In this document: piece after piece, positions 1 to 13,002 of the stretch
How positions within the stretch are numbered: position 1 is the first letter of the stretch
Layout: each line of letters starts with the position of its first letter
Source of the DNA: Oscillospiraceae bacterium
GTDB taxonomy: Bacteria > Bacillota > Clostridia > Oscillospirales > Oscillospiraceae
NCBI GenBank assembly: GCA_017416685.1
Contig: JAFQBN010000012.1
Location: 1 to 59,949, forward strand
Length of the DNA stretch: 59,949 bases
Direction: 5' to 3'
The notes under the pieces: model-generated
The model's database searches: none
Told to the model about the DNA's origin: nothing
Seen by the model: only the letters and a program-made list of their open reading frames with translations
Position numbers and translations under genes: made by a program

Positions 1-42
1 ACCCAAAATATCACGGGCCGCGGCCATGGGCTGCGCCACTTT

Positions 43-255
43 TCAAAGAGCCTGTAATTCTTTCCAGGTATCCTGAATGGTCTTTTGCGGTAAATAAACT
101 CCGGCCAGTTCCATAAGCTGTCCAAGGGTCAGGCTGCGGCCCGCGGCCACCATAGGGTGCTTCATCCACTTGCCGAACCGCCTGCGGAACACGGCGGCAG
201 AGCGCGGGTCGTCCAGCAGTTCCCCCACGGTAATGCGATTGTTTCTTAAATCCAA
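43..255 (-). CDS. Small VGELL-motif protein, function unknown
   Basis: A 70-residue soluble protein. After a short N-terminus it has a VGELLDDP motif followed by a basic helix and a second helical stretch (SLTLGQLMELAG). Similar short helical modules occur as stand-alone proteins and as tails of glycoside hydrolases in Clostridia, but no biochemical role is known to me. I chose the TTG start at 253-255 because a GGAGGTGA ribosome site lies 5-7 bases upstream; a GTG at 285 would add ten residues but has no such site. It is divergent from the membrane protein at 321. The 42 bases before its stop hold nothing I can identify. Confidence 0.6.
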   Translation of the reverse strand: MDLRNNRITVGELLDDPRSAAVFRRRFGKWMKHPMVAAGRSLTLGQLMELAGVYLPQKTIQDTWKELQAL

Positions 256-320
256 ACCGATCACCTCCACCCCTATCCTATGCACATACTCCCCGGGATT
301 GCCGGGAGAAAGGAACTATC

Positions 321-1148
321 ATGAAAGAAAAAAAGTCTCCCGGCCTGCTGGGACAGATCCGACATGCCCTGCGGCACAAGCGCTCTGTCACCGTGGTTTA
401 CTTCACTCTGCGGCTTTTGGTCATTGTAACCATGGTGGCCCAGTTCTTCAACGGAAACTTTGAAAACGTGTTTTTGTGCCTGTTGACGCTGGTGCTGTTC
501 ATCCTGCCCGCCACACTGGAGCATAAGCTGAATATCGAATTGCCCGACACTCTGCAAATCATCATTCTGCTGTTCATCTTTGCGGCGGAGATCTTGGGCG
601 AGATCCAGTCCTTTTACACCACCTTTCCCTACTGGGATACCATCCTGCACACTCTCAACGGCTTTTTATGCGCCGCCATCGGGTTCTGTCTGGTGGACCT
701 GTTCGACCGGTCGGAGCGGTTCTCCCTGACCCTCTCCCCGGCCTTCATGGCTATTGTGGCGTTCTGCTTTTCCATGACGGTGGGCGTGCTGTGGGAGTTT
801 TTCGAATTCTTCATGGACAAAATCTTTCTGCTGGATATGCAGAAGGACACCATTGTCCATGTCATCTCCTCCGTCACACTGGACCCCGCCAACGCCAACA
901 ACGCCGTGGTCGTCGGCCCCATTGTGGATGCCACCGTCCACACCCCTGCCGGTCCCATCCCGCTGCAGCTGGGCGGCTGGCTGGACATTGGCCTTGTGGA
1001 TACCATGGCCGACCTGATCGTCAACTTTATCGGTGCGGTGATTTTTTCCATCATTGGCTATTTTTACGTCAAGCAGCGGGGCCGCGGTCGGTTTGCCAGC
1101 CGCTTCATCCCCCGCATTTTATCCCGGAAAGAGATCGCTGAAGAATAA
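321..1148 (+). CDS. Multi-pass membrane protein, DUF2238/YjdF-like
   Basis: A 275-residue integral membrane protein with about six hydrophobic segments (roughly 25-42, 48-66, 76-95, 107-127, 140-158 and 230-250). Acidic and aromatic residues inside the helices (AAEILGEIQSF, WDTILHTLNGF, GVLWEFFEFFMDK) resemble the YjdF/DUF2238 membrane family, whose function is not established. The insert around 170-225, between the last two membrane segments, is less hydrophobic and probably extracytoplasmic. The ATG is preceded by AAAGGAA. The next gene, a DUF1540 peptide, follows after 51 bp and may share the transcript. Function is not inferred. Confidence 0.65.
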   Translation: MKEKKSPGLLGQIRHALRHKRSVTVVYFTLRLLVIVTMVAQFFNGNFENVFLCLLTLVLFILPATLEHKLNIELPDTLQIIILLFIFAAEILGEIQSFYTTFPYWDTILHTLNGFLCAAIGFCLVDLFDRSERFSLTLSPAFMAIVAFCFSMTVGVLWEFFEFFMDKIFLLDMQKDTIVHVISSVTLDPANANNAVVVGPIVDATVHTPAGPIPLQLGGWLDIGLVDTMADLIVNFIGAVIFSIIGYFYVKQRGRGRFASRFIPRILSRKEIAEE

Positions 1149-1199
1149 TTTCTCCTCCCGCGGGCATACTGACACCATCACTTATATGGAGGTGTCAAC

Positions 1200-1364
1200 A
1201 TGACCTGCAACAACAACATCAAATGTACCGTTTCCACCTGTGTCCACCACAGCAAGGAGAGCAACTGCTGCTCCCTGTCCCAGATCCAGGTTGGCTGCAC
1301 CGCCGCCAGTCCCACCGACTGCCGCGGCACCGAGTGCGTGTCCTTCAGCATGCACAAGAACTGA
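1200..1364 (+). CDS. DUF1540 cysteine-rich small protein
   Basis: A 54-residue protein with cysteines at 3, 9, 14, 23, 24, 33, 41 and 46. The spacing (C-x4-C early, a central CC, then TDCRGTECVSF) matches the DUF1540 family of small, probably metal-binding proteins common in spore-forming Firmicutes. Their role is unknown. The ATG is set by a GGAGGTG site seven bases upstream (1188-1194). It is too short for ordinary ORF cut-offs. A strong hairpin starts ten bases after the stop, so it ends the transcript. Confidence 0.8.
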   Translation: MTCNNNIKCTVSTCVHHSKESNCCSLSQIQVGCTAASPTDCRGTECVSFSMHKN

Positions 1365-1373
1365 TTTGCCCAT

Positions 1374-1411
1374 AAAAAATGCACGGGTGCGCTGCACCCG
1401 TGCATTTTTTT
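1374..1411. terminator. Bidirectional intrinsic terminator
   Basis: A-run, stem TGCACGGGTGC / GCACCCGTGCA with a short loop, then a T-run. It can serve the DUF1540 gene on the plus strand and the Rnf cluster ending at 1420 on the minus strand. Confidence 0.85.
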
Positions 1412-1419
1412 ATTTCGCG

Positions 1420-1998
1420 TTATACATGCAATCCGTAAAATCCCATCAGAGCAAGGCCCATCAGGCCCGCCGTGATCAGCTCGATGGGAAAACCCCTGAA
1501 CCACTTGGGACAGCGCTCAAAGCTGGCCTGATCCTGCATGCCGGTGAAGATGACAAGCACCAGCAGCACGCCCACGCCGGCGGCGAGCGAGTACAGGAAG
1601 GTCTGCCCAAAAGTGTAGTTGCGCGTGGTGATGATATAGGCTGCGCCCATCACCGAGCAGTTGTAGAGGCTGTAGGAAAGATGGTCCTTCACGTAGCCGT
1701 ACAGGCCGGGGAAAAATGTCCCCAGCAGCTTACGCAGACCCCAGATCACACCCGGCACCAGCAGGGCATACACCAGCAGCCGCAGGTGGCCCAGACCGAA
1801 AAAGTCCAGCACAAAACGGTTGATGAGCCACGCCGCCAGAGCATTGAACACCATGACGAGGGTAATGCTCACGCCCATGCGCCAGGCCGAGTCCTCCGAG
1901 GAGGTCGCAGCGTCGGGCCAGCCCATGCCCATGCATCGGACCAGCACCATGTTTTCCGCCAGTACGGCGATCAGCACCAAACCAATGGCTTGAATCAT
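1420..1998 (-). CDS. RnfA-like membrane subunit of an Rnf-type complex
   Basis: A 192-residue, six-helix membrane protein of the RnfA/RnfE/NqrD/NqrE family, normally one half of a subunit pair that carries a 2Fe-2S cluster inside the membrane. Family marks are ENMVLVRCMGMGW at the N-terminus, YNCSVMGAA in mid-protein (Cys114) and the RnfA-like C-terminus AGLMGLALMGFYGL. The first family cysteine (FLGLC in E. coli RnfA) is a glycine here; a cysteine sits four residues earlier (Cys22). It is the last gene of the cluster, 17 bp after the RnfD-G fusion, with GGAGGAGG before the ATG, and a terminator follows. No partner RnfE lies in the window. Confidence 0.85.
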   Translation of the reverse strand: MIQAIGLVLIAVLAENMVLVRCMGMGWPDAATSSEDSAWRMGVSITLVMVFNALAAWLINRFVLDFFGLGHLRLLVYALLVPGVIWGLRKLLGTFFPGLYGYVKDHLSYSLYNCSVMGAAYIITTRNYTFGQTFLYSLAAGVGVLLVLVIFTGMQDQASFERCPKWFRGFPIELITAGLMGLALMGFYGLHV

Positions 1999-2015
1999 CG
2001 TTGCCTCCTCCTTCC

Positions 2016-3650
2016 TTACACGTCGCCGTCCACAAAGTCCACATCACCCGCATCCAGACAGGACGTGATATAAAGCGCCTTATTCACGCCGGCGGTGATG
2101 GCCCGGCTGGTGTCGGTGGCACCGCTGACGGCATCCACCGAGTTCCAGCCTGTGTCACGAATGGTGCCGGACATGCCGATGTAGCGGTCCAAAAACTCCC
2201 GTTCCAGCGCCGCGCCGCCGATGACGGCATGTTCGCTGTTGGCGGTGACGCTGATGCCGGTCACTTCGCCGTTGACATTGACACCCACCACCATGGTCAT
2301 CATACCGCCGAAGCCCTGCACTTCCACCTCCACCGCGTGGCCGATCAGTTCACTTTCGTTGTAGCCGGCCAGAATGGACAGCGCATCCTCCGCCAGATAG
2401 GGCGTCTCGGTCAGCACCTGGGCCTGGGGCATCACCTGCTCCAGCAGCTGCTGCATTTTTCGGTTCTCCTGCTCCATGGCCGCCTGACCGGTCAGCCCGT
2501 ACACCAGCCACACACCGGCCACCGCCACGGCAATGGTAACACACACAGCTGCGGTCCGTCTGGCGATTTGGGGCAGGCGGTCCAGCATCTTTTCCTGCGG
2601 CGCCTTCTCTCCGCGTCCGGGCCAAACGGGTTTCAGCTTTGCCAGCCGCGCCAGCTGACGGCGCAGCCACAGCTTGCTTTCCGTCATGGGCGGCATGCCG
2701 AATCTGCGGGGCAGACCGATACGGTCCAGCAGCCATACACAGCAGTTCATAGTCAGGATAGAGAAACCCACACCGTCGGGATAGGAGCCAAAGGTCCGCA
2801 GCACAAAGGTCAGCGCACCGCAGCCCACACCGAACAGCATCTGGCCCCGGGGGGTGACCGGGGAGGTGGCGTAGTCCGTAGCCATGAAGATGGCGCCCAG
2901 CAGCAGACCGCCGCTGAACACATTGTACATCATCCAGTCTGCCGCCTGCTGTCCCGCATGGGGGAACAGGCCGCTCAGCAGCGCCACCGTACCGATGAAC
3001 AGCACCGGGATGCGCCAGGAGATCACGCGCCGGGCCAGCAGATATAATCCGCCCAACAGCAGCATGGCGCCGGCCACCTCACCTATAGCACCGCCGTGCT
3101 GCCCCAGCAGCATCTGGCTCAGGCTGAAGGGGGGCAGCTTGCCCACGTGGAGATAGGCCATAGGGGTGGCCGCACTGACTGCGTCCACCGTGTTCAGCAG
3201 ACCCGGACGCACCAGCGCATCCGTCCACGAGGTCATCATCCCCGGGAAGGACAGCAGCAGCATGCGGCCCGCCAGGGCCGGGTTCATAAAGTTTTTGCCC
3301 AGACCGCCATAGAACTGCTTGACCACCACAATGGCAAAAGCGCCGCCCAGCACCGGCGCCCAGTAGGGGGCAGTGACGGGCAGGCTCATGGCCAGCAGCA
3401 GGCCGGTCACACAGGCAGACAGGTCGCCGACGGTGTTGGGCCGCTTGGCAAGCCTGCAGTATAGGGCTTCAAATCCCATACAGGAAATAACGCTGACCGC
3501 AGCCAGCAGCAGCACCCGCAGGCCAAACAGATACGCGCCCATGAGCAGAGCGGGGGTCAGTGCCACCAGCACGTCCAGCATGATGGTGTCCACCCCGGCG
3601 TTATCCTTTATGCTGGGGGAAACGGGGTGTTTGGTATGCCGATAACTCAT
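2016..3650 (-). CDS. RnfD-RnfG fusion protein of an Rnf-type complex
   Basis: A 544-residue protein that joins two Rnf subunits usually made separately. Residues 1 to about 325 are RnfD/NqrB-like: many membrane helices and a covalent-FMN site region DAVSAATPM with Thr162 (the usual motif is SGAT; here SAAT). A basic linker (about 325-350) and one membrane helix (about 350-370) lead into an RnfG/NqrC-like extracytoplasmic domain with a textbook flavinylation motif DAVSGATDTSR (Thr512). The polypeptide thus probably carries two covalent flavins. Its ATG overlaps the rnfC stop (ATGA), so translation is likely coupled. The fused order D-G follows the normal gene order C-D-G. Confidence 0.88.
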   Translation of the reverse strand: MSYRHTKHPVSPSIKDNAGVDTIMLDVLVALTPALLMGAYLFGLRVLLLAAVSVISCMGFEALYCRLAKRPNTVGDLSACVTGLLLAMSLPVTAPYWAPVLGGAFAIVVVKQFYGGLGKNFMNPALAGRMLLLSFPGMMTSWTDALVRPGLLNTVDAVSAATPMAYLHVGKLPPFSLSQMLLGQHGGAIGEVAGAMLLLGGLYLLARRVISWRIPVLFIGTVALLSGLFPHAGQQAADWMMYNVFSGGLLLGAIFMATDYATSPVTPRGQMLFGVGCGALTFVLRTFGSYPDGVGFSILTMNCCVWLLDRIGLPRRFGMPPMTESKLWLRRQLARLAKLKPVWPGRGEKAPQEKMLDRLPQIARRTAAVCVTIAVAVAGVWLVYGLTGQAAMEQENRKMQQLLEQVMPQAQVLTETPYLAEDALSILAGYNESELIGHAVEVEVQGFGGMMTMVVGVNVNGEVTGISVTANSEHAVIGGAALEREFLDRYIGMSGTIRDTGWNSVDAVSGATDTSRAITAGVNKALYITSCLDAGDVDFVDGDV

Positions 3651-4966
3651 ACTTCCCTCTCCTCCCCCTGTACGATGTTTCTGGCCTGCGCCATCCGCTC
3701 CACCAGCGGGATATGGGCCGGGCAGATATAGCTGCAGCAGCCGCAGGCCATGCAGTCCTCGGTATGCAGACGGGCCAGCTCTGCCGGGTCACCGCCCAGC
3801 TTCAGCTCCTTGGCTACCAGAATGGGCATCAAATGCATGGGGCAGACCGCCACGCACCGTCCGCAGCGGATACAGTCCCGTTCCGGCTTGCGCTGACCCT
3901 GCTCCCAGTTCAGCAGGCAGGTCACGCCATTGGTACTCTTCAAAATAGGGGTGTTCAGGTCGGTCTGGACCCTACCCGTCATGGGGCCGCCGGTCAGCAC
4001 CCGGACCTCGGACTCCCGCAGACCGCCCGCCGCCTGAATCAAATCATTCAGCGACGTTCCGACAGGCACCCACAGGTTGCGGGGACGCACCACAGCGCCG
4101 CCGCCCACAGTGACCACCCGGTGGGTCAGTGCGCGGCCCTCCACCACCGCCTGATAGACAGCGTAGGCCGTGGCGGCGTTGAACACTACGCATCCCACGT
4201 CGATGGCCACACCCTCGGAGGGGATCTCTTTCCCGGTCACCGCCTTGACCACCTGCTTTTCACTGCCCAGGGGATAGCGGGACGGCACGGCGCACACGCG
4301 GCAGTCGATACCCTTTCGGCGGGCAGTACGCTCCAACCCCTCCACGGCGTTGAGCTTGTTGCCCTCCACCGCTGCCACGGCATGTTTGGCCCCGGCAGCC
4401 TTTTTCAAAATACACAGGCCGGTCAGCACCGCCTCGCTGCGTTCCAGCAGCAGACGGTGGTCGGCGGTTATGTACGGTTCGCTCTCGGCCGCGTTTACAA
4501 TGACCGTTCCCACGCGGCCCCGGGCAGCACGCAGCTTGTCCGCCGTGGGGAACGCCGCGCCGCCCATGCCCACGATGCCGCAGGCGGCAATACGTTCCAC
4601 AAGGTCGCTCTCGGACAGGTCCTGCCAGTTTTCGGCAGAGAAGCCCTGCTGCCAGGGAGTATCGCAGCCGTCATTCTCGATGACCACAGCCGGACATACG
4701 CCGCCCCAGGGATGGGGCCGGTCCTCAATGGCTGCCACCCGGCCGGACACACTGGCGTGGATGACCGTCTGTTCGCTTTCAGCCACAGGCTGCCCCAAAG
4801 CGACCTTGTCCCCCACCTTCACCAGCGGCGTACACGCCTGACCGGCGTGCATGCGCAGTGCAAGCGCCACCCGCTCCGGGCAGACATCCGGCAGCGCCAG
4901 CGGCTTGCGCCGGCTGCCCTCCTTGCGGCCCTCCAGATGGATGCCGCCGAATATCGAATGAACCAT
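3647..4966 (-). CDS. rnfC: RnfC, NADH-facing subunit of an Rnf-type complex
   Basis: A 439-residue peripheral subunit. It opens with the RnfC N-terminal sequence VHSIFGGIHLEGRK, has the FMN/NADH-binding region (GIVGMGGAAFPT, NAAESEPYI) and a SLBB-type segment. Near the C-terminus are two 4Fe-4S motifs, CIRCGRCVAVCP (from residue 365) and CMACGCCSYICP (from residue 405). The family links NAD(H) to the membrane part of Rnf. The ATG at 4964-4966 follows GGAGGTGA by five bases; an upstream ATG at 4993 lacks a ribosome site. First gene of the three-gene cluster. Confidence 0.93.
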   Translation of the reverse strand: MVHSIFGGIHLEGRKEGSRRKPLALPDVCPERVALALRMHAGQACTPLVKVGDKVALGQPVAESEQTVIHASVSGRVAAIEDRPHPWGGVCPAVVIENDGCDTPWQQGFSAENWQDLSESDLVERIAACGIVGMGGAAFPTADKLRAARGRVGTVIVNAAESEPYITADHRLLLERSEAVLTGLCILKKAAGAKHAVAAVEGNKLNAVEGLERTARRKGIDCRVCAVPSRYPLGSEKQVVKAVTGKEIPSEGVAIDVGCVVFNAATAYAVYQAVVEGRALTHRVVTVGGGAVVRPRNLWVPVGTSLNDLIQAAGGLRESEVRVLTGGPMTGRVQTDLNTPILKSTNGVTCLLNWEQGQRKPERDCIRCGRCVAVCPMHLMPILVAKELKLGGDPAELARLHTEDCMACGCCSYICPAHIPLVERMAQARNIVQGEEREV

Positions 4967-5025
4967 GTGTTCACCTCCGCACCGGGCATACACAGGCCCG
5001 GTTGTACATTCCTCTTCAATTATAT

Positions 5026-5054
5026 ATCATAATCCAACCCCGACGTTCTGTCCA
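5026..5054 (-). promoter_or_regulatory. Predicted sigma-A promoter of the rnf cluster
   Basis: On the minus strand TGGACA, 17 bases, TATGAT. It lies about 60 bp upstream of the rnfC start codon. Confidence 0.65.
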
Positions 5055-5106
5055 GTTTTAAATTGTGAATTCTTATGGAGAAATTGTCGGAAATTCGTCT
5101 TTTTGG

Positions 5107-5135
5107 TTGACGGTTGGAGAAAAGGACTGTAGAAT
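5107..5135 (+). promoter_or_regulatory. Predicted promoter of the zinc-ribbon/SH3 protein
   Basis: TTGACG, 17 bases, TAGAAT, ending 33 bp before the ATG at 5169. Confidence 0.7.
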
Positions 5136-5168
5136 AGAGAAAAGACCTTTTGACGGAGGATTTGACCT

Positions 5169-6137
5169 ATGGCAACTCAACAGGACACCCCCCGCCGCAG
5201 CGACGTGGTCCGCTGTGAATTCTGCGGCGAAGATTATTCTGTTACCTACCGCAAGTGTCCCTTCTGCGACGACATGGCCGGCCGGCCCGCGCCCCGTCCC
5301 ACCGCCAATCCCGGCAGGGGCGGCAAGCGGCAGATCGGCGGCGCACCCCGCGGCGGCGCACCTATGGAGCCTGTACGTATCATCGGCTACGCTCTGGGCA
5401 TCATTTTGATCATCGCCGCCATCTACATCGTGTACACCATGCTCGCCCCCCTGTTCGGCGGCAGCGGTTCCGAGTCGTCTGTCTCTTCCGTGCAGTCGTC
5501 GGCGAGTTCGTCGGTGTCCGCTTCTCAATCCCAGCCGGATGTCAGCATTCCCGACCCCGCGGTCAGCACCTCCGCCCCGGGTGTGATCACCCCGCAGGTC
5601 AAGACCACGGCCATCGCCCTGAGTACCACCGACTTCACTCTGAAGCCTGATGAAACGGCAAAGATCGTGGCCACCCTCACCCCCGCCAACAGCGACGAGG
5701 AAGTTGTCTGGACCAGCAGCGACACCTCCATTGCCACTGTGGCCGCCGATGGCAGCGTGACCAACGTCAATACCGGTTCCTCCCAGAAGGTGGTCACCGT
5801 TACCGCCACCTCCGGCAGCGTATCCGCTGAGTGCATCGTGCGCTGCAAACCCGGCAGCAGCGGTACCGCCGCTCCCCCCACCCCCACTACGCCGACCACC
5901 CCCGGCACGACTACCACTCCCGTGGCATCCGGCACCGTAGGCGTCATCAACAGCGACGGCGTGCGTATCCGCACCGCCCCCGTCAGCGGCGAACAGCAGG
6001 ACACCGGCTATGCAAATTCCGAGGTCACCATCCTGGAAAAGACCTCTGACGGCTGGTATAAGATCCGCTACAACTCCGCCCAGGGGCAGAAAGAGGGTTA
6101 CATCTCCGCCCAGTTTGTTGACGTTAAGTCCAACTAA
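5169..6137 (+). CDS. Zinc-ribbon, Ig-like (Big_2) and SH3-domain membrane protein
   Basis: A 322-residue single-span protein. The N-terminus holds a zinc ribbon (Cys16, Cys19, Cys30, Cys33), then a Gly/Pro/Arg-rich linker and one membrane helix (about 70-92). After a Ser-rich spacer comes a bacterial Ig-like Big_2 domain (about 140-220, with EVVWTSSDTSIATV), a Thr/Pro linker, and a C-terminal bacterial SH3 domain (about 255-322, DGVRIRTAPVSG). Topology suggests a cytoplasmic metal-binding head and an outside part that binds cell wall. GGAGGA precedes the ATG. Specific function is unknown; a wall-sensing or envelope-anchoring role is inference. Confidence 0.8.
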   Translation: MATQQDTPRRSDVVRCEFCGEDYSVTYRKCPFCDDMAGRPAPRPTANPGRGGKRQIGGAPRGGAPMEPVRIIGYALGIILIIAAIYIVYTMLAPLFGGSGSESSVSSVQSSASSSVSASQSQPDVSIPDPAVSTSAPGVITPQVKTTAIALSTTDFTLKPDETAKIVATLTPANSDEEVVWTSSDTSIATVAADGSVTNVNTGSSQKVVTVTATSGSVSAECIVRCKPGSSGTAAPPTPTTPTTPGTTTTPVASGTVGVINSDGVRIRTAPVSGEQQDTGYANSEVTILEKTSDGWYKIRYNSAQGQKEGYISAQFVDVKSN

Positions 6138-6145
6138 AGTCCAGA

Positions 6146-6173
6146 CGGCCGCAGCGCAATGCTGCGGCCGTTT
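6146..6173 (+). terminator. Intrinsic terminator
   Basis: Stem CGGCCGCAGC / GCTGCGGCCG with a five-base loop and a short T-run, just after the zinc-ribbon/SH3 gene. Confidence 0.75.
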
Positions 6174-6221
6174 CTTCAAACGCTTGCCATCCCGCAATAT
6201 AACAGGAAACGAGGCCTTCCC

Positions 6222-7133
6222 ATGAACATCCATCGTCCCACCATAAAGATGCAGGCCCGGCAGACCATGAAGGCTGCCCGTCCCCGTTTTTATTCCATGA
6301 CCCTTTTGTATCTGCTGCTGACCGCCGGGGTCAGCATGCTGGTCAACCTTCTGTTCCTTGACCCTCTGACCCAGCTGGCCGAACTGGTCGGGGCCGGGCT
6401 GCCCCTGCCCCGGGCTCTGCTGCTGACTCTGTCCGAAACAGGGGCCGTGGGCCTGTTCGTCCACATACTGGTCCTCGTGGCTGTGGTGGTGCTGGACTTC
6501 GGTTACCACCTGTGGTGCCTTGGCTCCACCCGGGGCGGCATCGGTGAGTGGCGTGACCTGTTCTCCGGCTTTGCCATGGCCGGCCGGTCCATTTTGCTGC
6601 GGCTGGTGGTCATTACCTGCAGCTTCATTTGGTACATGGTTTCTACCATGGCGGCTATGATGGTGTCCGGCATCGCCATGTTCGTTACCCCCTTCGGCAT
6701 CCTGTCCGCCATCCCCATTTTCGCCGCAGCCATCGGCTTTTTCTTCTGGAAGATCCTGCACTACAGCATGGCCGACTTCTGCCTGATGGATGCCCCGGAC
6801 AAGGGTGTGTTCCACGCCATCGGCGAAAGCTGCCACCTGATGCGGGGCCACTGCGGACAGTTCCTGCTGCTGATGCTGTCCTTCTTCGGGTGGTGGCTGC
6901 TGGGTTTTGCCATTCAGATGGCGGCAGAGGGTATCCTGCTCATTGCCGCAGGCGGCCCGTGGCTGCTGACTGGCGATGTGTACGGTGCCATGAGTGCCGT
7001 CACCGCACTGCCGCTGGCAGGGGTGGTATCCGCGGTGCTGTACTGGCCCTTCGCCGCGTGGCTGACCCCCTATCAGTCCATGACCAAGGCCTGTTTCTAC
7101 AACGCCCTGCGTTCCGGCTCTCAGCCGCAATAA
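6222..7133 (+). CDS. DUF975-like multi-pass membrane protein
   Basis: A 303-residue membrane protein. It starts with a basic amphipathic stretch (IKMQARQTMKAARP) and has about six hydrophobic segments. The pattern of a short basic N-terminus, paired helices and a loop with KILHYSMADFCLMD then AIGESCHLMRGH matches the DUF975 family (about 200-300 residues, membrane, unknown role). The ATG at 6222 is a better start than upstream codons within the previous terminator. No clear promoter was found in the 80 bp before it. A bidirectional terminator follows. Confidence 0.65.
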   Translation: MNIHRPTIKMQARQTMKAARPRFYSMTLLYLLLTAGVSMLVNLLFLDPLTQLAELVGAGLPLPRALLLTLSETGAVGLFVHILVLVAVVVLDFGYHLWCLGSTRGGIGEWRDLFSGFAMAGRSILLRLVVITCSFIWYMVSTMAAMMVSGIAMFVTPFGILSAIPIFAAAIGFFFWKILHYSMADFCLMDAPDKGVFHAIGESCHLMRGHCGQFLLLMLSFFGWWLLGFAIQMAAEGILLIAAGGPWLLTGDVYGAMSAVTALPLAGVVSAVLYWPFAAWLTPYQSMTKACFYNALRSGSQPQ

Positions 7134-7140
7134 ATGTCAC

Positions 7141-7175
7141 AAAAGCGCCCCCAACCATTGGGTTGGGGGCGTTTT
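7141..7175. terminator. Bidirectional intrinsic terminator
   Basis: Stem CGCCCCCAACC / GGTTGGGGGCG, four-base loop, flanked by A-run and T-run. It separates two convergent genes. Confidence 0.85.
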
Positions 7176-7183
7176 CATCTGTT

Positions 7184-9304
7184 TCAGTTCTTTTTGAAAT
7201 TCAGCTTCATTTCATAGCTCCCAGTGGTTTCGGGCATGAACCGGTACTCGTAAATACCCTGTTCCTCGTCCACCGCCACCAATTCATTGGCAGGGGCGTA
7301 CTCCTTGGGAACGTACAGAGTGACCACGTATTCGTCGCCCGCCACCAGCTTTGCGTTCAGGGACAGTGTCAGGTCGTCTTCGGACCACGTCAGCGCCTCG
7401 ATCTCTGCCGCGCCCTGGGTCACATGGCGGTTGGTGCTGACGATCTGGGGCCGCTCCAGACGGCGGCGCACGGCGATGATGGCACTTTCGCAGCTGTCCA
7501 GTTCCACCTCCAGCTTGGTATCGGTGCAGCCGAGATACTGCCGCTTGCCATAGTCGTACAAATGATACACGCCGGGGTCCAGATACAGATCACCCTCCAG
7601 CCGCACCTCGTACCGGCAGCGCTTCTGCTGCAGGTTCAGCACGTCCACCACGTTGTAGCTCTCCCACGGGGTTTCCACGTTCAGATTGGTGATGAGGTGG
7701 CGCCGGCTGCTCTCGTGGTCATAGATGTCCATGGGGTGCACATCCATGGTGGGCAGACACCGGCGCAGCAGGTCCACGCGCTTTTCCGGCAGTTCGGGCA
7801 GCACGTCGCCGAAAGTCATGGGCAGGCCCAGCAGCGTATTGAAATATGCACGGGAGGCCGCCTGACGGTAGTTGTTGTACTGCTCGGACAGGATCACGTT
7901 GTCCGGGTCGTTATAAAGGCACACGTTGTGCAGGGGGTAGTAGCGCATGACACGCAGTACGCCCTGCTCGATGAATTCGTCCCATTCGAAGGTATCGCCG
8001 CCAACACGGGCGGCATCGAACATATCCGCCGCCCACAGCACGCCGCCGGGAGTGGCGGAGCAGGACAGGACGTAGGCGTTCTCGCCCATGCACTCTCTCG
8101 TCTTGGCGATCATGGCACGAAAGGCGTCCTTGGTGGTAACGGACGGGTCGTAGCAGTCCATATGGAACTTTTCGTTCTTCTCCACGCCGTCCCAGATGGT
8201 GTCGTACTTGATAGCCTCGAAACCCCAGTCCTTCACCTTGCCGATGGCCATGGGCAAAAACTCATTGAGGTACTTGGGGTGGGTGAAATCGTAGTAATAC
8301 GTACCGCACCAGCCGATCTCCTCCCGCAGGACGACCTCGGGGTTCTGCTTGATGAATTCGTTTTTGCCCGGGTCGTTGGTGTAGCCGATCCACAGGGCGG
8401 GAGTAAAGCCGTTTTCCTTGATTTTCCCGGCTACGTAGTCAAGGCCGTTGGGGTACTTCTTGGGGTCGGGGTTCAGGGAGTCCACCCCATCATCCCGGAT
8501 GCCCGCGTAATCAGCGTGGTGCCACTCCCAGTCGATCCAGATGGTGTCCGCGCCGTAGTCCTTCAGGTGCTTGGCCTGCCACTCGGTATTCTCCAGCACG
8601 GTCTGTTCGCTGGCGTTAAAGCCCACACTGTACCACGTCATCCAGCCGGCGGGCGGCTTTTTGTAGTCGCCGTTTTTGTTGATGGGGCCGTACTTGAAAT
8701 GGTAGCGGTCGGCCATGATGTTGCGCTCCACATTGACATGGAATTTGCGCTCCCCGGCCTTGATACCGGTGGTCAGGGTAAAGCCGTACTCCTGCTTTTC
8801 CCAGTCGTAGCGCATCCGGTAGCGCTTACCGCCGGCCACCTTCACCGCGCTGTCGGTCAGGCGGTCAAAGAGCATATCGTCCACAGCGGATGCCGCCGGG
8901 CCGATGGCGGAGCGCAGGTGGCAGGCGTTCTCGATTGAGGACATTGGGAAGGTATGCTCCTGAACCTGCGCGCCCCAGCTCACCGTGCCGCACAGGTCCA
9001 CGGTACACTCGGGGTCAGCGGTGAAGATAACGTCCACGCCGTCCGGATTAACGTTAACGGAAAGCTTAAAAAAAGAAACGACCTCGCTCTGGCGGGTCCA
9101 GGTGGCTCCGATGCGCCCTATTGAAGAGCCGCTGCTGCTCAGGGTAAAGTCCGCCGGGTCGATGACCATGTCCTTGTAGTAGAGTTTGGTCACACGCACG
9201 CCGGTCATGCACTTGCCGCCCGCCTCGCAGATGTCCAGCGTGCCGGTGTCCCGGTCAAACACCACGCTGTAGTCATTGTAGCTGCAGTACAGTTTATTGC
9301 TCAT
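7184..9304 (-). CDS. GH36-like alpha-galactosidase-type glycoside hydrolase
   Basis: A 706-residue cytoplasmic glycosidase of clan GH-D. After a beta-rich N-terminal domain (about 1-220) comes a TIM barrel with GWMTWYSVGFN, ADTIWIDWEWHH and WGFEAIKYDTIWDG. By analogy with GH36/GH27, Asp368 in IKYD is the nucleophile and Asp437 in ARVGGDTFEWD is the acid/base. A C-terminal beta domain follows. No signal peptide, so it would act on imported oligosaccharides. The ATG at 9304 is preceded by AAAGGGG. The true substrate is uncertain: alpha-galactosides are the family default, but divergent members take other sugars. Own promoter; stands alone between terminators. Confidence 0.8.
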   Translation of the reverse strand: MSNKLYCSYNDYSVVFDRDTGTLDICEAGGKCMTGVRVTKLYYKDMVIDPADFTLSSSGSSIGRIGATWTRQSEVVSFFKLSVNVNPDGVDVIFTADPECTVDLCGTVSWGAQVQEHTFPMSSIENACHLRSAIGPAASAVDDMLFDRLTDSAVKVAGGKRYRMRYDWEKQEYGFTLTTGIKAGERKFHVNVERNIMADRYHFKYGPINKNGDYKKPPAGWMTWYSVGFNASEQTVLENTEWQAKHLKDYGADTIWIDWEWHHADYAGIRDDGVDSLNPDPKKYPNGLDYVAGKIKENGFTPALWIGYTNDPGKNEFIKQNPEVVLREEIGWCGTYYYDFTHPKYLNEFLPMAIGKVKDWGFEAIKYDTIWDGVEKNEKFHMDCYDPSVTTKDAFRAMIAKTRECMGENAYVLSCSATPGGVLWAADMFDAARVGGDTFEWDEFIEQGVLRVMRYYPLHNVCLYNDPDNVILSEQYNNYRQAASRAYFNTLLGLPMTFGDVLPELPEKRVDLLRRCLPTMDVHPMDIYDHESSRRHLITNLNVETPWESYNVVDVLNLQQKRCRYEVRLEGDLYLDPGVYHLYDYGKRQYLGCTDTKLEVELDSCESAIIAVRRRLERPQIVSTNRHVTQGAAEIEALTWSEDDLTLSLNAKLVAGDEYVVTLYVPKEYAPANELVAVDEEQGIYEYRFMPETTGSYEMKLNFKKN

Positions 9305-9338
9305 ATTCAATTCCCCTTTCACTGGGTGTTCTGTGCTT

Positions 9339-9367
9339 ACAGTACACCATCCGCTGCATCAAGTCAA
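9339..9367 (-). promoter_or_regulatory. Predicted promoter of the GH36-like gene
   Basis: Minus strand TTGACT, 17 bases, TACTGT, about 35 bp upstream of the start codon. Confidence 0.6.
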
Positions 9368-9386
9368 GAAGTTTACACTTTCTTTA

Positions 9387-9415
9387 TGGACATTTTCTCC
9401 ATTTGCGGGTACAAT
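9387..9415 (+). promoter_or_regulatory. Predicted promoter of the rhomboid-like gene
   Basis: TGGACA, 17 bases, TACAAT, 30 bp before the ATG at 9446. Confidence 0.65.
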
Positions 9416-9445
9416 ACCAGTATCACCTCAAAAGGAGGCACGTTT

Positions 9446-10306
9446 ATGCGTGGTATCTCCCGGCTGCTGAGCCGTTTTTGCTATAACCACCCCAACTTCG
9501 CCATCCCCAACCTGATGAAGTACGTCGTCTTCGGCAACGTCATCGTATGGCTGCTGGACATGTTCTCCGGCGGACTGGCCTCCCACTGGCTGTCCTTTGT
9601 GCCGGGGGCGATTTTTCAGGGGCAGGTGTGGCGGCTTGTGACCTTTGTGTTTGTCCCCTCCTTCTCCGACCTGCTGTATCTGGCTCTGTCCCTGTTCATG
9701 TACTACTTTTTGGGCGCTCAGCTGGAACGGATCTGGGGCACCACCAGATTCACCGTCTACTATCTGCTGGGCACAGCGTTGACCGCCCTGTGCGGTCTGC
9801 TTCTGTGGTTCACGCCCTTCCGCTTCTGGGCCGTGGTGGACATGGGTTATGTTAACCTATCCCTCTTTCTTGCCTTCGCCACCTTGTTTCCCGACATGCA
9901 GTTCCGCATCTACTTCATCATCCCCATCCGGGGAAAGTGGCTGGCGCTGGTCTATGTCATTTTGATCGGCCTTGACGTGTTCAAATATATCTCGCTGGGC
10001 CATTATCTGCTGGCGCTGACACCGGTGGTCTCCCTGCTGAACTGGCTGCTGTTCTTCTGGGAGGATTTGTTCCGGGGCGATCAGAAAGCTCACGTCCGGG
10101 TACAGCGCAGGGTCACGCAAAAGCCGGTGGACCTCCACGCCGCTCAGAAGCAGGTGCAGGAGCAGAAGGGTTACCTCCACAAATGCGCCGTGTGCGGCAT
10201 TACCGACGCCATGGACCGAACCATGGAGTTCCGCTACTGCTCCAAGTGTGAGGGCTATTACTGCTACTGCGCCAGGCATATTAATGATCACACTCACGTG
10301 CAATAA
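9446..10306 (+). CDS. Rhomboid-like membrane protein with Cys-rich C-terminal tail
   Basis: A 286-residue protein. Residues 20-205 form about six membrane helices with rhomboid features: QGQVWRLVTFVFVP, then LGAQLERIWGTTRFTVYYLLG. The catalytic GxSG motif expected after the L1/helix 3 region is not seen; the matching region reads VDMGYVNLSLFLAFATLFPD. It is therefore probably not a standard serine protease. The soluble tail has Cys247, Cys250, Cys265, Cys268, Cys273 and Cys275 plus three histidines, a likely zinc site, in the pattern CAVCG...YCSKCEGYYCYC. GGAGG precedes the ATG. Role unknown. Confidence 0.75.
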   Translation: MRGISRLLSRFCYNHPNFAIPNLMKYVVFGNVIVWLLDMFSGGLASHWLSFVPGAIFQGQVWRLVTFVFVPSFSDLLYLALSLFMYYFLGAQLERIWGTTRFTVYYLLGTALTALCGLLLWFTPFRFWAVVDMGYVNLSLFLAFATLFPDMQFRIYFIIPIRGKWLALVYVILIGLDVFKYISLGHYLLALTPVVSLLNWLLFFWEDLFRGDQKAHVRVQRRVTQKPVDLHAAQKQVQEQKGYLHKCAVCGITDAMDRTMEFRYCSKCEGYYCYCARHINDHTHVQ

Positions 10307-10340
10307 AAAAACGCGGTGTGCCAATGGCACACCGCGTTTT
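10304..10340. terminator. Bidirectional intrinsic terminator
   Basis: Stem CGCGGTGTGCC / GGCACACCGCG, three-base loop, A-run before and T-run after. It lies between convergent genes. Confidence 0.85.
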
Positions 10341-10348
10341 CATTCTCA

Positions 10349-11377
10349 TTACACAAGTCCAATCGCCATTTCCACCAGCAGGGCCACGATGACCACCAGC
10401 GCCGAAATGATAAAGCCGTGGAGCATGGGTTTGATGCCCGACTTTTTCATACTGGCAAAGGAGGTGTTCAGCCCAATGGCGGCAAGGGCGCATACCATCA
10501 GGAACTTGCTGATCGTCTTGGTATTGGCCACTACTTCGGTGGGGATGGCAACCAAACTCGCCACTACGGACATAGCCAAAAAGCCAAGGATGAACCAAGG
10601 GAATATCTTCTTGATGCTGAAGTTTGCCTTCAGCACCTCCCCCGTCTGACCGGCAGCTGCGGCCTGCTTCCTCTTCAGGCGCAGCTGAATAAATGCAAAG
10701 GCAACCACCGTGGGGATAATGGACAACGTGCGGGTCAGCTTGACCATAGTGGCGTAATCGCCGGCTCCCTCGGAAAAAGCGTATCCGGTAGCCACCACAG
10801 AGGAGGTATCGTTCACCGCCGTACCGGCCCAGATCCCAAAAGCCTGGTCGGTCATACCCAAGGCCCGGCCCATAATGGGAAACAGCACGATCATGGCCAT
10901 ATCAAACAGGAATGTGGCGGACATGGCATAGGCCACGTCGCTGTCCTCGGCGTCAATGGTGGGGGCGATGGCGGCGATGGCAGAACCGCCGCAGATTCCC
11001 GTCCCGGCAGAGATAAGGTTGGACAGCTTCCAGTTCAGTCCCAATGCCTTTCCAATAAAGTAGCCGCCGCCGAAGCAGGTGGCCAGGGTGAATACCATCA
11101 CCAACAGGGACATCTTACCCACATTCACAATGGTGGTAATGTTCAGGGACAGGCCCAATAGGATGATGGCAAATTTCAGCACCTTTTTGGAGGTGAACTT
11201 CAAACCCGGAGCCAGCCATTTGCAGTTGCCCAGAATGCTGTTCATCAGCATGCCCAGGAACATGGCAATGACCGCACCGCCAATGAGGTGTATGGGTAGC
11301 AGTCCTTCAATCCACGTGGCAACAAAGGCGATAGCCACCGACAGCGCCAGCCCGGGCAGCAATTTCATAATACTCAC
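10349..11377 (-). CDS. YeiH-family putative sulfate exporter
   Basis: A 342-residue membrane protein of the YeiH (UPF0324) family with about ten helices. Conserved family signatures seen include LLGLSLN, GTGICGGSAIAAIAP, AGTAVNDTSSVVATGY and MVCALAAIGLNT. Members are annotated as putative sulfate or sulfonate exporters; direct proof is sparse. The GTG at 11377 has AGAGGGG nine bases upstream; an ATG three codons further in (11368) is an alternative. It begins 17 bp after the prfC stop with no terminator between, so it is probably cotranscribed with prfC, a pairing with no obvious functional link. Confidence 0.85.
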   Translation of the reverse strand: MSIMKLLPGLALSVAIAFVATWIEGLLPIHLIGGAVIAMFLGMLMNSILGNCKWLAPGLKFTSKKVLKFAIILLGLSLNITTIVNVGKMSLLVMVFTLATCFGGGYFIGKALGLNWKLSNLISAGTGICGGSAIAAIAPTIDAEDSDVAYAMSATFLFDMAMIVLFPIMGRALGMTDQAFGIWAGTAVNDTSSVVATGYAFSEGAGDYATMVKLTRTLSIIPTVVAFAFIQLRLKRKQAAAAGQTGEVLKANFSIKKIFPWFILGFLAMSVVASLVAIPTEVVANTKTISKFLMVCALAAIGLNTSFASMKKSGIKPMLHGFIISALVVIVALLVEMAIGLV

Positions 11378-11394
11378 AGTGCATATCCCCTCTG

Positions 11395-13002
11395 TCAGAA
11401 CTTCGCCCCGCCGAACTCGGCAAGGACAAGGCCCTTGTTGCGCTCGGTGACCCACTGGATAGACCACTGGGAGGCAAACAGCAGCAGCTGGTTGCCCTTA
11501 TAGTCCTCCACCAGCTTGGCATCGTTGGGCAGCAGCAGGTCTTCCTCTTTCAGCGGCTGGGCATCCTCGTCCTCACGGACCACCCAGCGCAGGTACTCAT
11601 AGGGCAGGCCCTCTTTGTACAGCTCCACGTTGTACTCACTGCGCAGGCGGTACTCCAGTACGTCAAACTGCAGGGTACCCACCACGCCCACGATGACCTC
11701 CTCCATACCGGTGTAGGGGGTCTTGAAGATCTGAATGGCACCTTCCTGGGCGATCTGCTCCACGCCCTTCAAAAACTGCTTGCGCTTCATGGTGTCGATG
11801 GAGCGAATGCGCATAAAATGCTCCGGCGCGAAGGTGGGGATGGGGTCGAACAGGAACTTCTTGCCGGGAGCGCACAGGGTGTCACCGATAGAGAAGATAC
11901 CCGGGTCGAACACGCCGATGATGTCGCCGGCGTAGGCCTCCTCAATGATCTCGCGCTCGGCGGCCATCAGCTGCTGGGGGCGGGACAGGCGCATCTTCTT
12001 GCCGCCCTGCATGTGATAGACTTCCTTCTCCGCGTCGAAGCGGCCGGACACCACGCGCATAAAGGCGATGCGGTCCCGGTGGGCCTTGTTCATGTTGGCC
12101 TGGATCTTGAATACGAAGGCGGAGAACTCCTCGTCAAAGCAGTCCACCACCTGCTCGCCCGCCCGACGGGGCAGGGGCGCGGTGGTCATGCGCAGAAACT
12201 CCTCCAAAAACGGCTCCACACCGAAGTTGGTCAGGGCAGAACCGAAGAATACGGGAGACAGCTTGCCGTGGCGCACCCGCTCCATATCAAAGTCGCAGGA
12301 GGCGCCGTCCAGCAGCTCGATCTCGTCCACCAGCTGGCTGTGCTTGGCCGCACCGATCAGGTCCGCCAGAGCAGGGTCGTTGACCTCGATCTCGGTGGCG
12401 GTGGCCGCCTTGGCGTTGGTGTTGGAGGTGAAGTGGATGACCTTGCGGTTCTGCCGGTCGTACACGCCCTTGAATTCCTTGCCGCAGCCGATGGGCCAGT
12501 TCATGGCGTAGGTGTCGATGCCCAGCTCCTTCTCCAGTTCCTCGCACAGTTCGAAGGGGTCCCGGGTCTCCCGGTCCATCTTGTTGATAAAGGTGAAGAT
12601 GGGAATATCCCGCATGGCACAGACCTTAAAAAGTTTTCGGGTCTGGGCCTCCACGCCCTTGGCCGCGTCAATGACCATGACCGCGCTGTCGGCGGCCATG
12701 AGGGTGCGGTAGGTATCCTCGGAAAAGTCCTGGTGGCCGGGGGTGTCCAGAATGTTGATGCAGAAGCCGTCATACTGGAACTGCATGACCGAAGAGGTCA
12801 CGGAAATGCCGCGCTGTTTCTCGATCTCCATCCAGTCGGAGGTGGCGGCCCGGGTGTTCTTCTTGCCCTTGACCTGACCGGCCTGGGCGATGGCTCCGCC
12901 GTAGAGCAGGAACTTTTCCGTCAGGGTGGTCTTACCTGCGTCGGGGTGAGAGATAATGGCAAAGGTCCTGCGGCGTTTGATTTCGGATTCGTACTGTGAC
13001 AA
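11395..13002 (-). CDS. prfC: Peptide chain release factor 3
   Basis: A 535-residue GTPase that recycles RF1/RF2 from the ribosome after termination. G-domain motifs are clear: HPDAGKTT (19-26), the switch region RGISVTSSVMQF, DTPGHQD (from 86) and NKMD (140-143). The rest has the EF-G-like domains and PrfC-specific sequences such as GTLQFDVLEYRL near the C-terminus. Full length for the family. The start is TTG (13000-13002) with AGGGAGTG about nine bases upstream; there is no suitable ATG. Confidence 0.95.
   Translation of the reverse strand: MSQYESEIKRRRTFAIISHPDAGKTTLTEKFLLYGGAIAQAGQVKGKKNTRAATSDWMEIEKQRGISVTSSVMQFQYDGFCINILDTPGHQDFSEDTYRTLMAADSAVMVIDAAKGVEAQTRKLFKVCAMRDIPIFTFINKMDRETRDPFELCEELEKELGIDTYAMNWPIGCGKEFKGVYDRQNRKVIHFTSNTNAKAATATEIEVNDPALADLIGAAKHSQLVDEIELLDGASCDFDMERVRHGKLSPVFFGSALTNFGVEPFLEEFLRMTTAPLPRRAGEQVVDCFDEEFSAFVFKIQANMNKAHRDRIAFMRVVSGRFDAEKEVYHMQGGKKMRLSRPQQLMAAEREIIEEAYAGDIIGVFDPGIFSIGDTLCAPGKKFLFDPIPTFAPEHFMRIRSIDTMKRKQFLKGVEQIAQEGAIQIFKTPYTGMEEVIVGVVGTLQFDVLEYRLRSEYNVELYKEGLPYEYLRWVVREDEDAQPLKEEDLLLPNDAKLVEDYKGNQLLLFASQWSIQWVTERNKGLVLAEFGGAKF

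Follow-up and report, generated by a model that had tools for sequence, protein, structure and literature searches.

We analysed a 59,949-nucleotide stretch of an Oscillospiraceae bacterium genome (GenBank assembly GCA_017416685.1, contig JAFQBN010000012.1, positions 1 to 59,949), referred to below as the window. Near its start lies a compact unit of three genes related to those of the Rnf complex, all on the minus strand (1420-4966): an RnfC homologue, an RnfD-RnfG fusion and a single RnfA-like gene, hereafter the C-DG-A unit (Table 1). The initial annotation described a three-gene Rnf-like complex without RnfB or RnfE, and gene reading together with Pfam matches bore this out. The RnfC homologue matches RnfC_N, Complex1_51K, SLBB and 4Fe-4S, and the fusion matches NQR2_RnfD_RnfE and FMN_bind on a single chain and nothing else. 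The C and D parts exceed the NCBIfam cut-offs for rnfC and rnfD; the G part scores 50.0 bits against rnfG (cut-off 102) and the RnfA-like protein 117.3 against rnfA (cut-off 229.3). Neither rnfB nor rnfE adjoins the unit in the window locus or in the relative loci that we fetched, no NqrF-type gene is joined to it among the reading frames examined, NqrF not having been searched genome-wide, and no Rfam family reaches its gathering score in window positions 1-12000.

The unit had also been described as closed. Its ATGA coupling and its terminator-like hairpin are both in place, the region holding 8 terminator-like sites against 2.9 ± 1.8 expected. The promoter match is there as well but is weak evidence, because the region contains 3 such matches against 1.3 ± 1.0 in shuffles.

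Table 1. Features of the C-DG-A unit in the window.
Feature	Position	Strand	Details
RnfC homologue, 439 amino acids	3647..4966	-	ATG at 4966; flavin mononucleotide (FMN)/reduced nicotinamide adenine dinucleotide (NADH) (51K-like) domain and two 4Fe-4S motifs
RnfD-RnfG fusion, 544 amino acids	2016..3650	-	Predicted flavin Thr162 (D part) and Thr512 (G part); predicted riboflavin ligands Asn123 and Asp259
Orphan RnfA-like subunit, 192 amino acids	1420..1998	-	Pfam Rnf-Nqr; Cys22 and Cys114; Gly26 at the canonical cluster-cysteine site of the first transmembrane helix (TM1)
ATGA stop/start overlap, rnfC/fusion	3647..3650	-	Identical spacing in 28/38 loci holding all three genes
Terminator-like hairpin and T tract	1385..1407		3' of the unit, between it and the convergent gene
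Sigma-70-like promoter match TGGACA-17-TATGAT	5026..5054	-	10/12 consensus positions

The compact RnfA-like gene is present at full length in 59 of the 64 genomes of the genus (counted by hand). One further genome (G247) holds a fragment at a contig edge, and no such gene was found in four (G223, G249, G255 and G256), two of which are 95% complete. Below, these 59 are the genomes with a full-length gene. We fetched 40 further loci, which come from 39 of these 59; residue counts out of 41 include the window. A search for the same gene order in other genomes, proposed with the initial annotation, succeeded: at all 40 loci a single chain carries both D and G and the RnfA-like gene adjoins it, and RnfC is full length at 38, cut by the contig end at one (L097) and off the contig at another (L102). 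Ratios of nonsynonymous to synonymous substitution rates (dN/dS) span 0.02-0.59 across 30 gene pairs (ten pairs for each of the three genes), and the unit is under purifying selection. One genome, G239, carries two compact clusters (L077 and L102) on two contigs and may be a mixed bin.

A complete rnfCDGEAB operon lies in the same genome on contig C4 (L004), so the compact unit is a second, reduced set. Identity between the compact and resident proteins is 33% for C, 43% for D, 30% for G and 29% for A. The only rnfB match above the cut-off in the genome is that of the complete operon; the genome encodes one ApbE and has two FMN_bind matches, one in the G part of each Rnf set and none in any other protein. 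Both RnfA types are matched in 56 of the 64 genus genomes, three of them single contigs (G128, G204 and G226; hand count). A three-gene offshoot beside a normal Rnf is conserved in some gut bacteria.

The presence of a complete operon favours a reading already raised in the initial annotation, that the cluster is a decayed duplicate of the resident operon, or else a sequencing error. The predicted second operon exists, but the decay does not: conservation of the fusion and RnfA-like gene at every further locus, together with the dN/dS range, led us to reject this explanation, to which we give almost no credence. The joined C+D tree also speaks against it. Compact C and D each form a clade (Shimodaira-Hasegawa-like approximate likelihood-ratio support 100 and 99), nearest to the Rnf sets of other family members and apart from the complete operon of the genus, with some family members placed elsewhere. 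A clade of compact and resident sequences is rejected by the joined C+D tree (approximately unbiased (AU) test, p 0.014), but not by C (AU p 0.052), D (0.0625) or A (0.34) singly. The A, C and D trees held 16 compact rows and the joined tree 12, with 31/41 for alignments A1 and A2; rows L217, L202 and L216 were dropped from the C, D and C+D tests, and L209 and L217 from the A tests.

To read individual residues we used A. woodii Rnf as the reference, with roles taken from excerpts of PMC11889175. Asn123, Thr162 (A. woodii Thr156) and Asp259 (Asp249) in the D part and Thr512 (Thr185) in the G part are each present in 41/41 proteins, and the RnfC cluster cysteines in all 39 aligned full-length C proteins, the window's included. 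Judged by these residues, the predicted covalent FMN threonines of D and G and the predicted riboflavin ligands of D are retained, the two covalent-flavin sites that the initial annotation placed on one chain among them, and the NADH-RnfC-RnfD-RnfG half is predicted to be intact. Alignment columns with a constancy of at least 90% among canonical proteins keep that constancy among the compact ones at 70/87 positions in D, 67/97 in C, 14/20 in G and 26/69 in A, a count that omits L217, L202 (in the G set) and five G frames without a flavin motif near their end. A keeps the smallest share of these columns, so the changes concentrate in the former partner of RnfE and RnfB. One further position proved uninformative: the G part has Phe at the FMN-holding Tyr113 of A. 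woodii in 41/41, and Phe is also found in 26 of 40 canonical G proteins (L202 and the same five frames omitted).

The RnfA-like subunit was compared with 47 canonical RnfA proteins, with residue roles again from excerpts of PMC11889175. Cys25, a [2Fe-2S] ligand, is kept in 0/41 compact proteins and is Gly in 39/41 (canonical 44/47). Phe21 is replaced by Cys in 37/41 (Cys22 in the window) and the remaining 4/41 have Ser22 (canonical Phe 43/47), whereas Cys113 (Cys114 in the window) is kept in 41/41 (canonical 46/47). The gate residue Leu108 is kept in 0/41 against 47/47, Lys32 in 2/41 against 43/47 and Arg154 in 13/41 against 46/47, and the ion-pair Glu88 has become Arg in 40/41 (canonical Glu 46/47). 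Milder changes affect Thr111 (kept in 27/41) and Thr110 (7/41). Two outer Na+ residues known from the A. woodii protein, D64 and E126, are uninformative, since canonical RnfA varies at these sites too. By this comparison little is left of the ferredoxin and ion-pump half: the unit lacks RnfB and RnfE, and the RnfA-like protein has lost one of two cluster cysteines, the ion-pair Glu, the gate Leu and most RnfB contacts.

These substitutions bear directly on one of two explanations offered in the initial annotation, a complex that borrows RnfB and RnfE from elsewhere. With the complete operon as the source, the C-DG-A proteins would join a hybrid that goes on working as a ferredoxin:NAD pump. 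Such a hybrid would draw support from the complete operon in the same genome and from the 56 genomes matching both RnfA types, but the RnfA residues that meet RnfE and RnfB (Glu88, Lys32 and Arg154) are largely replaced, which disfavours borrowing. In addition, the compact RnfA-like gene is the sole Rnf-Nqr match in three genomes (G219, G224 and G245), and the two searched for RnfB (G219 and G245) also lack an RnfB N-terminal match; this second argument is weak because all three genomes are less than 90% complete. We consider the hybrid improbable.

The other explanation was a homodimeric core. Two RnfA-like copies would then replace the RnfA/RnfE pair and bind a [2Fe-2S] cluster through Cys22 and Cys114. 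Each chain has two such cysteines in 37/41 cases, with Cys22 four residues ahead of the canonical site, whereas the four Ser22 proteins count against such a cluster. RnfA and RnfE are inverted relative to each other, according to excerpts of PMC12174285. Subtracting the positive charges of the even loops from those of the odd ones, with loop limits set by hand from a hydropathy plot, gives +5.8 ± 2.0 in compact A (41 proteins), +6.1 ± 1.4 in RnfA (47) and -8.5 ± 2.1 in RnfE (46; -3.7 without the C tail). Because the bias of compact A equals that of RnfA and is opposite to that of RnfE, an inverted pair of compact A subunits is unlikely, although the argument does not reach a same-orientation dimer. 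In favour of the homodimer, the even loops of compact A are more positive than those of RnfA (1.41 against 0.47 in loop 2 and 1.0 against 0.28 in loop 4), and the A tree allows a placement between RnfA and RnfE. The RnfA/RnfE tree proposed as a check was built, and the placement of compact A differs between analyses: a quick A tree sets it inside RnfA, and in an A/E tree without two long rows (L209 and L217) holding it with E beats the free-tree likelihood (AU p 0.725). We do not rely on the A/E placement, because the tests settled nothing and the E-side constraint scored higher. On the charge bias we regard an inverted homodimer as disfavoured, and a homodimeric core of any kind as unlikely overall.

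Loss of the pump arm, with the remainder serving as an electron conduit, fits better than either a homodimer or borrowing. We propose that the compact unit is an Rnf-derived paralogous complex in which the arm for ferredoxin entry and ion pumping (RnfB, RnfE and the RnfA/E [2Fe-2S] site) is gone while the arm on the NAD(H) side survives, and that it acts as an uncoupled NADH-to-outside electron conduit, a reading whose chances we put at about even. Its gene content, conservation and pattern of kept and lost residues can be read from the sequences themselves; its assembly, electron direction, uncoupling, acceptor and the role of its orphan subunit may be as follows. In RnfC, electrons from NADH would enter FMN and two 4Fe-4S clusters. 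They would then cross the membrane by way of riboflavin and FMN in the D part and arrive, on the outer side, at the FMN of the tethered G part, which would hand them to an acceptor outside the cell. ApbE would attach both FMNs, and the orphan RnfA-like subunit would persist as a partner in remodelled form, in which Cys22 and Cys114 perhaps make up a new site. In excerpts of PMC12174285 the Rnf electron path runs from ferredoxin through RnfB, the [2Fe-2S] cluster of A/E, G, D and C to NAD+, and because only half of this path is kept, the unit is probably a conduit rather than an ion pump. Both RnfD ends are cytoplasmic (PMC9588780, in excerpt), which suits fusion to the inside-out helix of G. 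For a different partial NADH:quinone oxidoreductase (NQR)/RNF system, excerpts of PMC8238504 already propose that electrons flow one way, from NAD(P)H to the outside.

Several observations weigh against the proposed conduit. No outside acceptor was found, the sole FMN_bind matches of the genome being the G parts of its two Rnf sets. RnfC in the window has an intact Gly-rich nucleotide loop, but in 10 of 39 relatives this loop has changed, GMGGxxFPT giving way to sequences such as SMGGGASPTH and DMGRDASPA, and NADH may therefore not be the donor everywhere in the genus. The retention of an orphan subunit with Cys114 in every protein and Cys22 in most suggests that it may still carry a cofactor. 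One form this could take within an uncoupled NADH-to-outside complex is that what was once half of a two-subunit iron-sulfur membrane pump now works alone as a redox subunit. A cysteine would have moved by about a helical turn, and Cys22 and Cys114 would together make a new thiol or metal site, buried in the membrane, through which electrons run between the FMN outside and a further partner; we offer this as a doubtful refinement. Electrons could also flow inward, an outside reductant feeding NAD+ through G, D and C. Rnf does operate both ways (PMC12174285, in excerpt), but no donor is known and the sequence sets no direction, and we think inward flow distinctly unlikely.

The C-DG-A unit was not found outside the genus in family, order, class or phylum genomes, among the matches listed. 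In 200 family genomes four genus members score 147-419 bits and the next match 116, and in 394 order genomes four genus members score 294-318 and the next 180. An rnfE-like gene lies beside rnfA at 25 of 26 family loci (L009-L034), the remaining locus starting at a contig end. Searching 391 class and 398 phylum genomes with the fusion recovered the full match of the window itself and, among the listed matches that were fetched, at least three other fusions (L202, L233 and L234), which belong to operons of other families that retain E, A and B. The D-G fusion alone is therefore not special, and we rejected it as what sets the unit apart; two other candidate fusions, in G625 (L203) and G995 (L235), were rejected because D and G are separate. 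Two peptide patterns taken from compact RnfA, scanned against a collection of species genomes, matched 55 loci, including a fragment (L157) and a weak 25% match (L158), with matches in Flintibacter muris, Pseudoflavonifractor phocaeensis, Flavonifractor sp. An100, Colidextribacter sp. OB.20, Lawsonibacter and other Oscillospiraceae metagenome-assembled genomes. Viral contigs gave no match with one window protein as query, and no description of a C-DG-A Rnf was recognised in the titles and abstract openings of the literature matches listed.

No gene family joins the operon as a conserved fourth member at every one of 39 loci. The largest sets of same-strand neighbours occur downstream at 11/39 loci (median 1.65 kb) and upstream at 10/39 (145-237 bp in five). 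The commonest neighbour is a convergent membrane gene, downstream of the unit at 20/39 loci; in the window it occupies 321-1148 on the plus strand and its product has no Pfam match. A small Cys-rich reading frame (1200-1364, plus strand), seen by eye, lies between it and the terminator.

Reduction of Rnf may be recurrent in the family. Locus L213 (G032:C15:203000-216000) reads rnfC-D-G-E-A with no rnfB; its genome has no match above the rnfB cut-off, with weak partial matches in longer frames only, and all four A/E cluster cysteines are kept. Locus L217 (G160:C1:600000-613000) reads rnfC-D-E-A, with no FMN_bind in the scanned D and E frames, no B match in the locus and both cluster cysteines of RnfA lost; a second cluster in the same genome (L216) has an RnfG with two domains and a short match to RnfB. 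At L209 (G180:C60:36000-50000), C-D-G-E-A is accompanied by an odd 373-amino-acid RnfB-like frame, and the TM1 cluster cysteine of RnfA is Gly.

In the pumping view of Rnf and NQR, electrons pass out and then back across the membrane. A natural complex with one crossing kept and the other lost would allow a test of which part pumps, and the compact unit could be a further route by which gut anaerobes send NADH electrons to the cell surface. Since the unit occurs in cultured species, these ideas are open to testing.

Compared with Rnf (RnfABCDGE), the compact unit shares C, D, G and A homologues, predicted covalent FMN sites and riboflavin ligands, and an RnfC with an FMN/NADH domain and two 4Fe-4S motifs. 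It differs in having no RnfB or RnfE at the locus, in the fusion of D to G, in the loss of one of two RnfA cluster cysteines and in the replacement of most RnfA ion-pump residues; the RnfA/RnfE heterodimer with four [2Fe-2S] cysteines is not encoded there, RnfE being absent and the TM1 cysteine kept in 0/41. Complete operons with a D-G fusion (L202, L233 and L234) share the one-chain D and G and differ by keeping E, A and B. The two-subunit NQR/RNF-like system described in excerpts of PMC8238504 and PMC11334425 is likewise partial, with one transmembrane path, an outside FMN_bind domain and a proposed one-way export from NAD(P)H. In those excerpts a PF00175 domain of the NqrF type is joined to NqrB/RnfD and the flavin site of D is missing, whereas the compact unit has no PF00175 fusion, takes its input through RnfC, keeps the predicted D flavin site (Thr162, 41/41), joins D to G and includes an RnfA-like protein. 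Relative to Na+-NQR, whose NqrB, NqrC and NqrE are homologous to D, G and A, the compact unit has neither NqrF nor NqrD at its locus and carries an Fe-S RnfC instead of NqrA.

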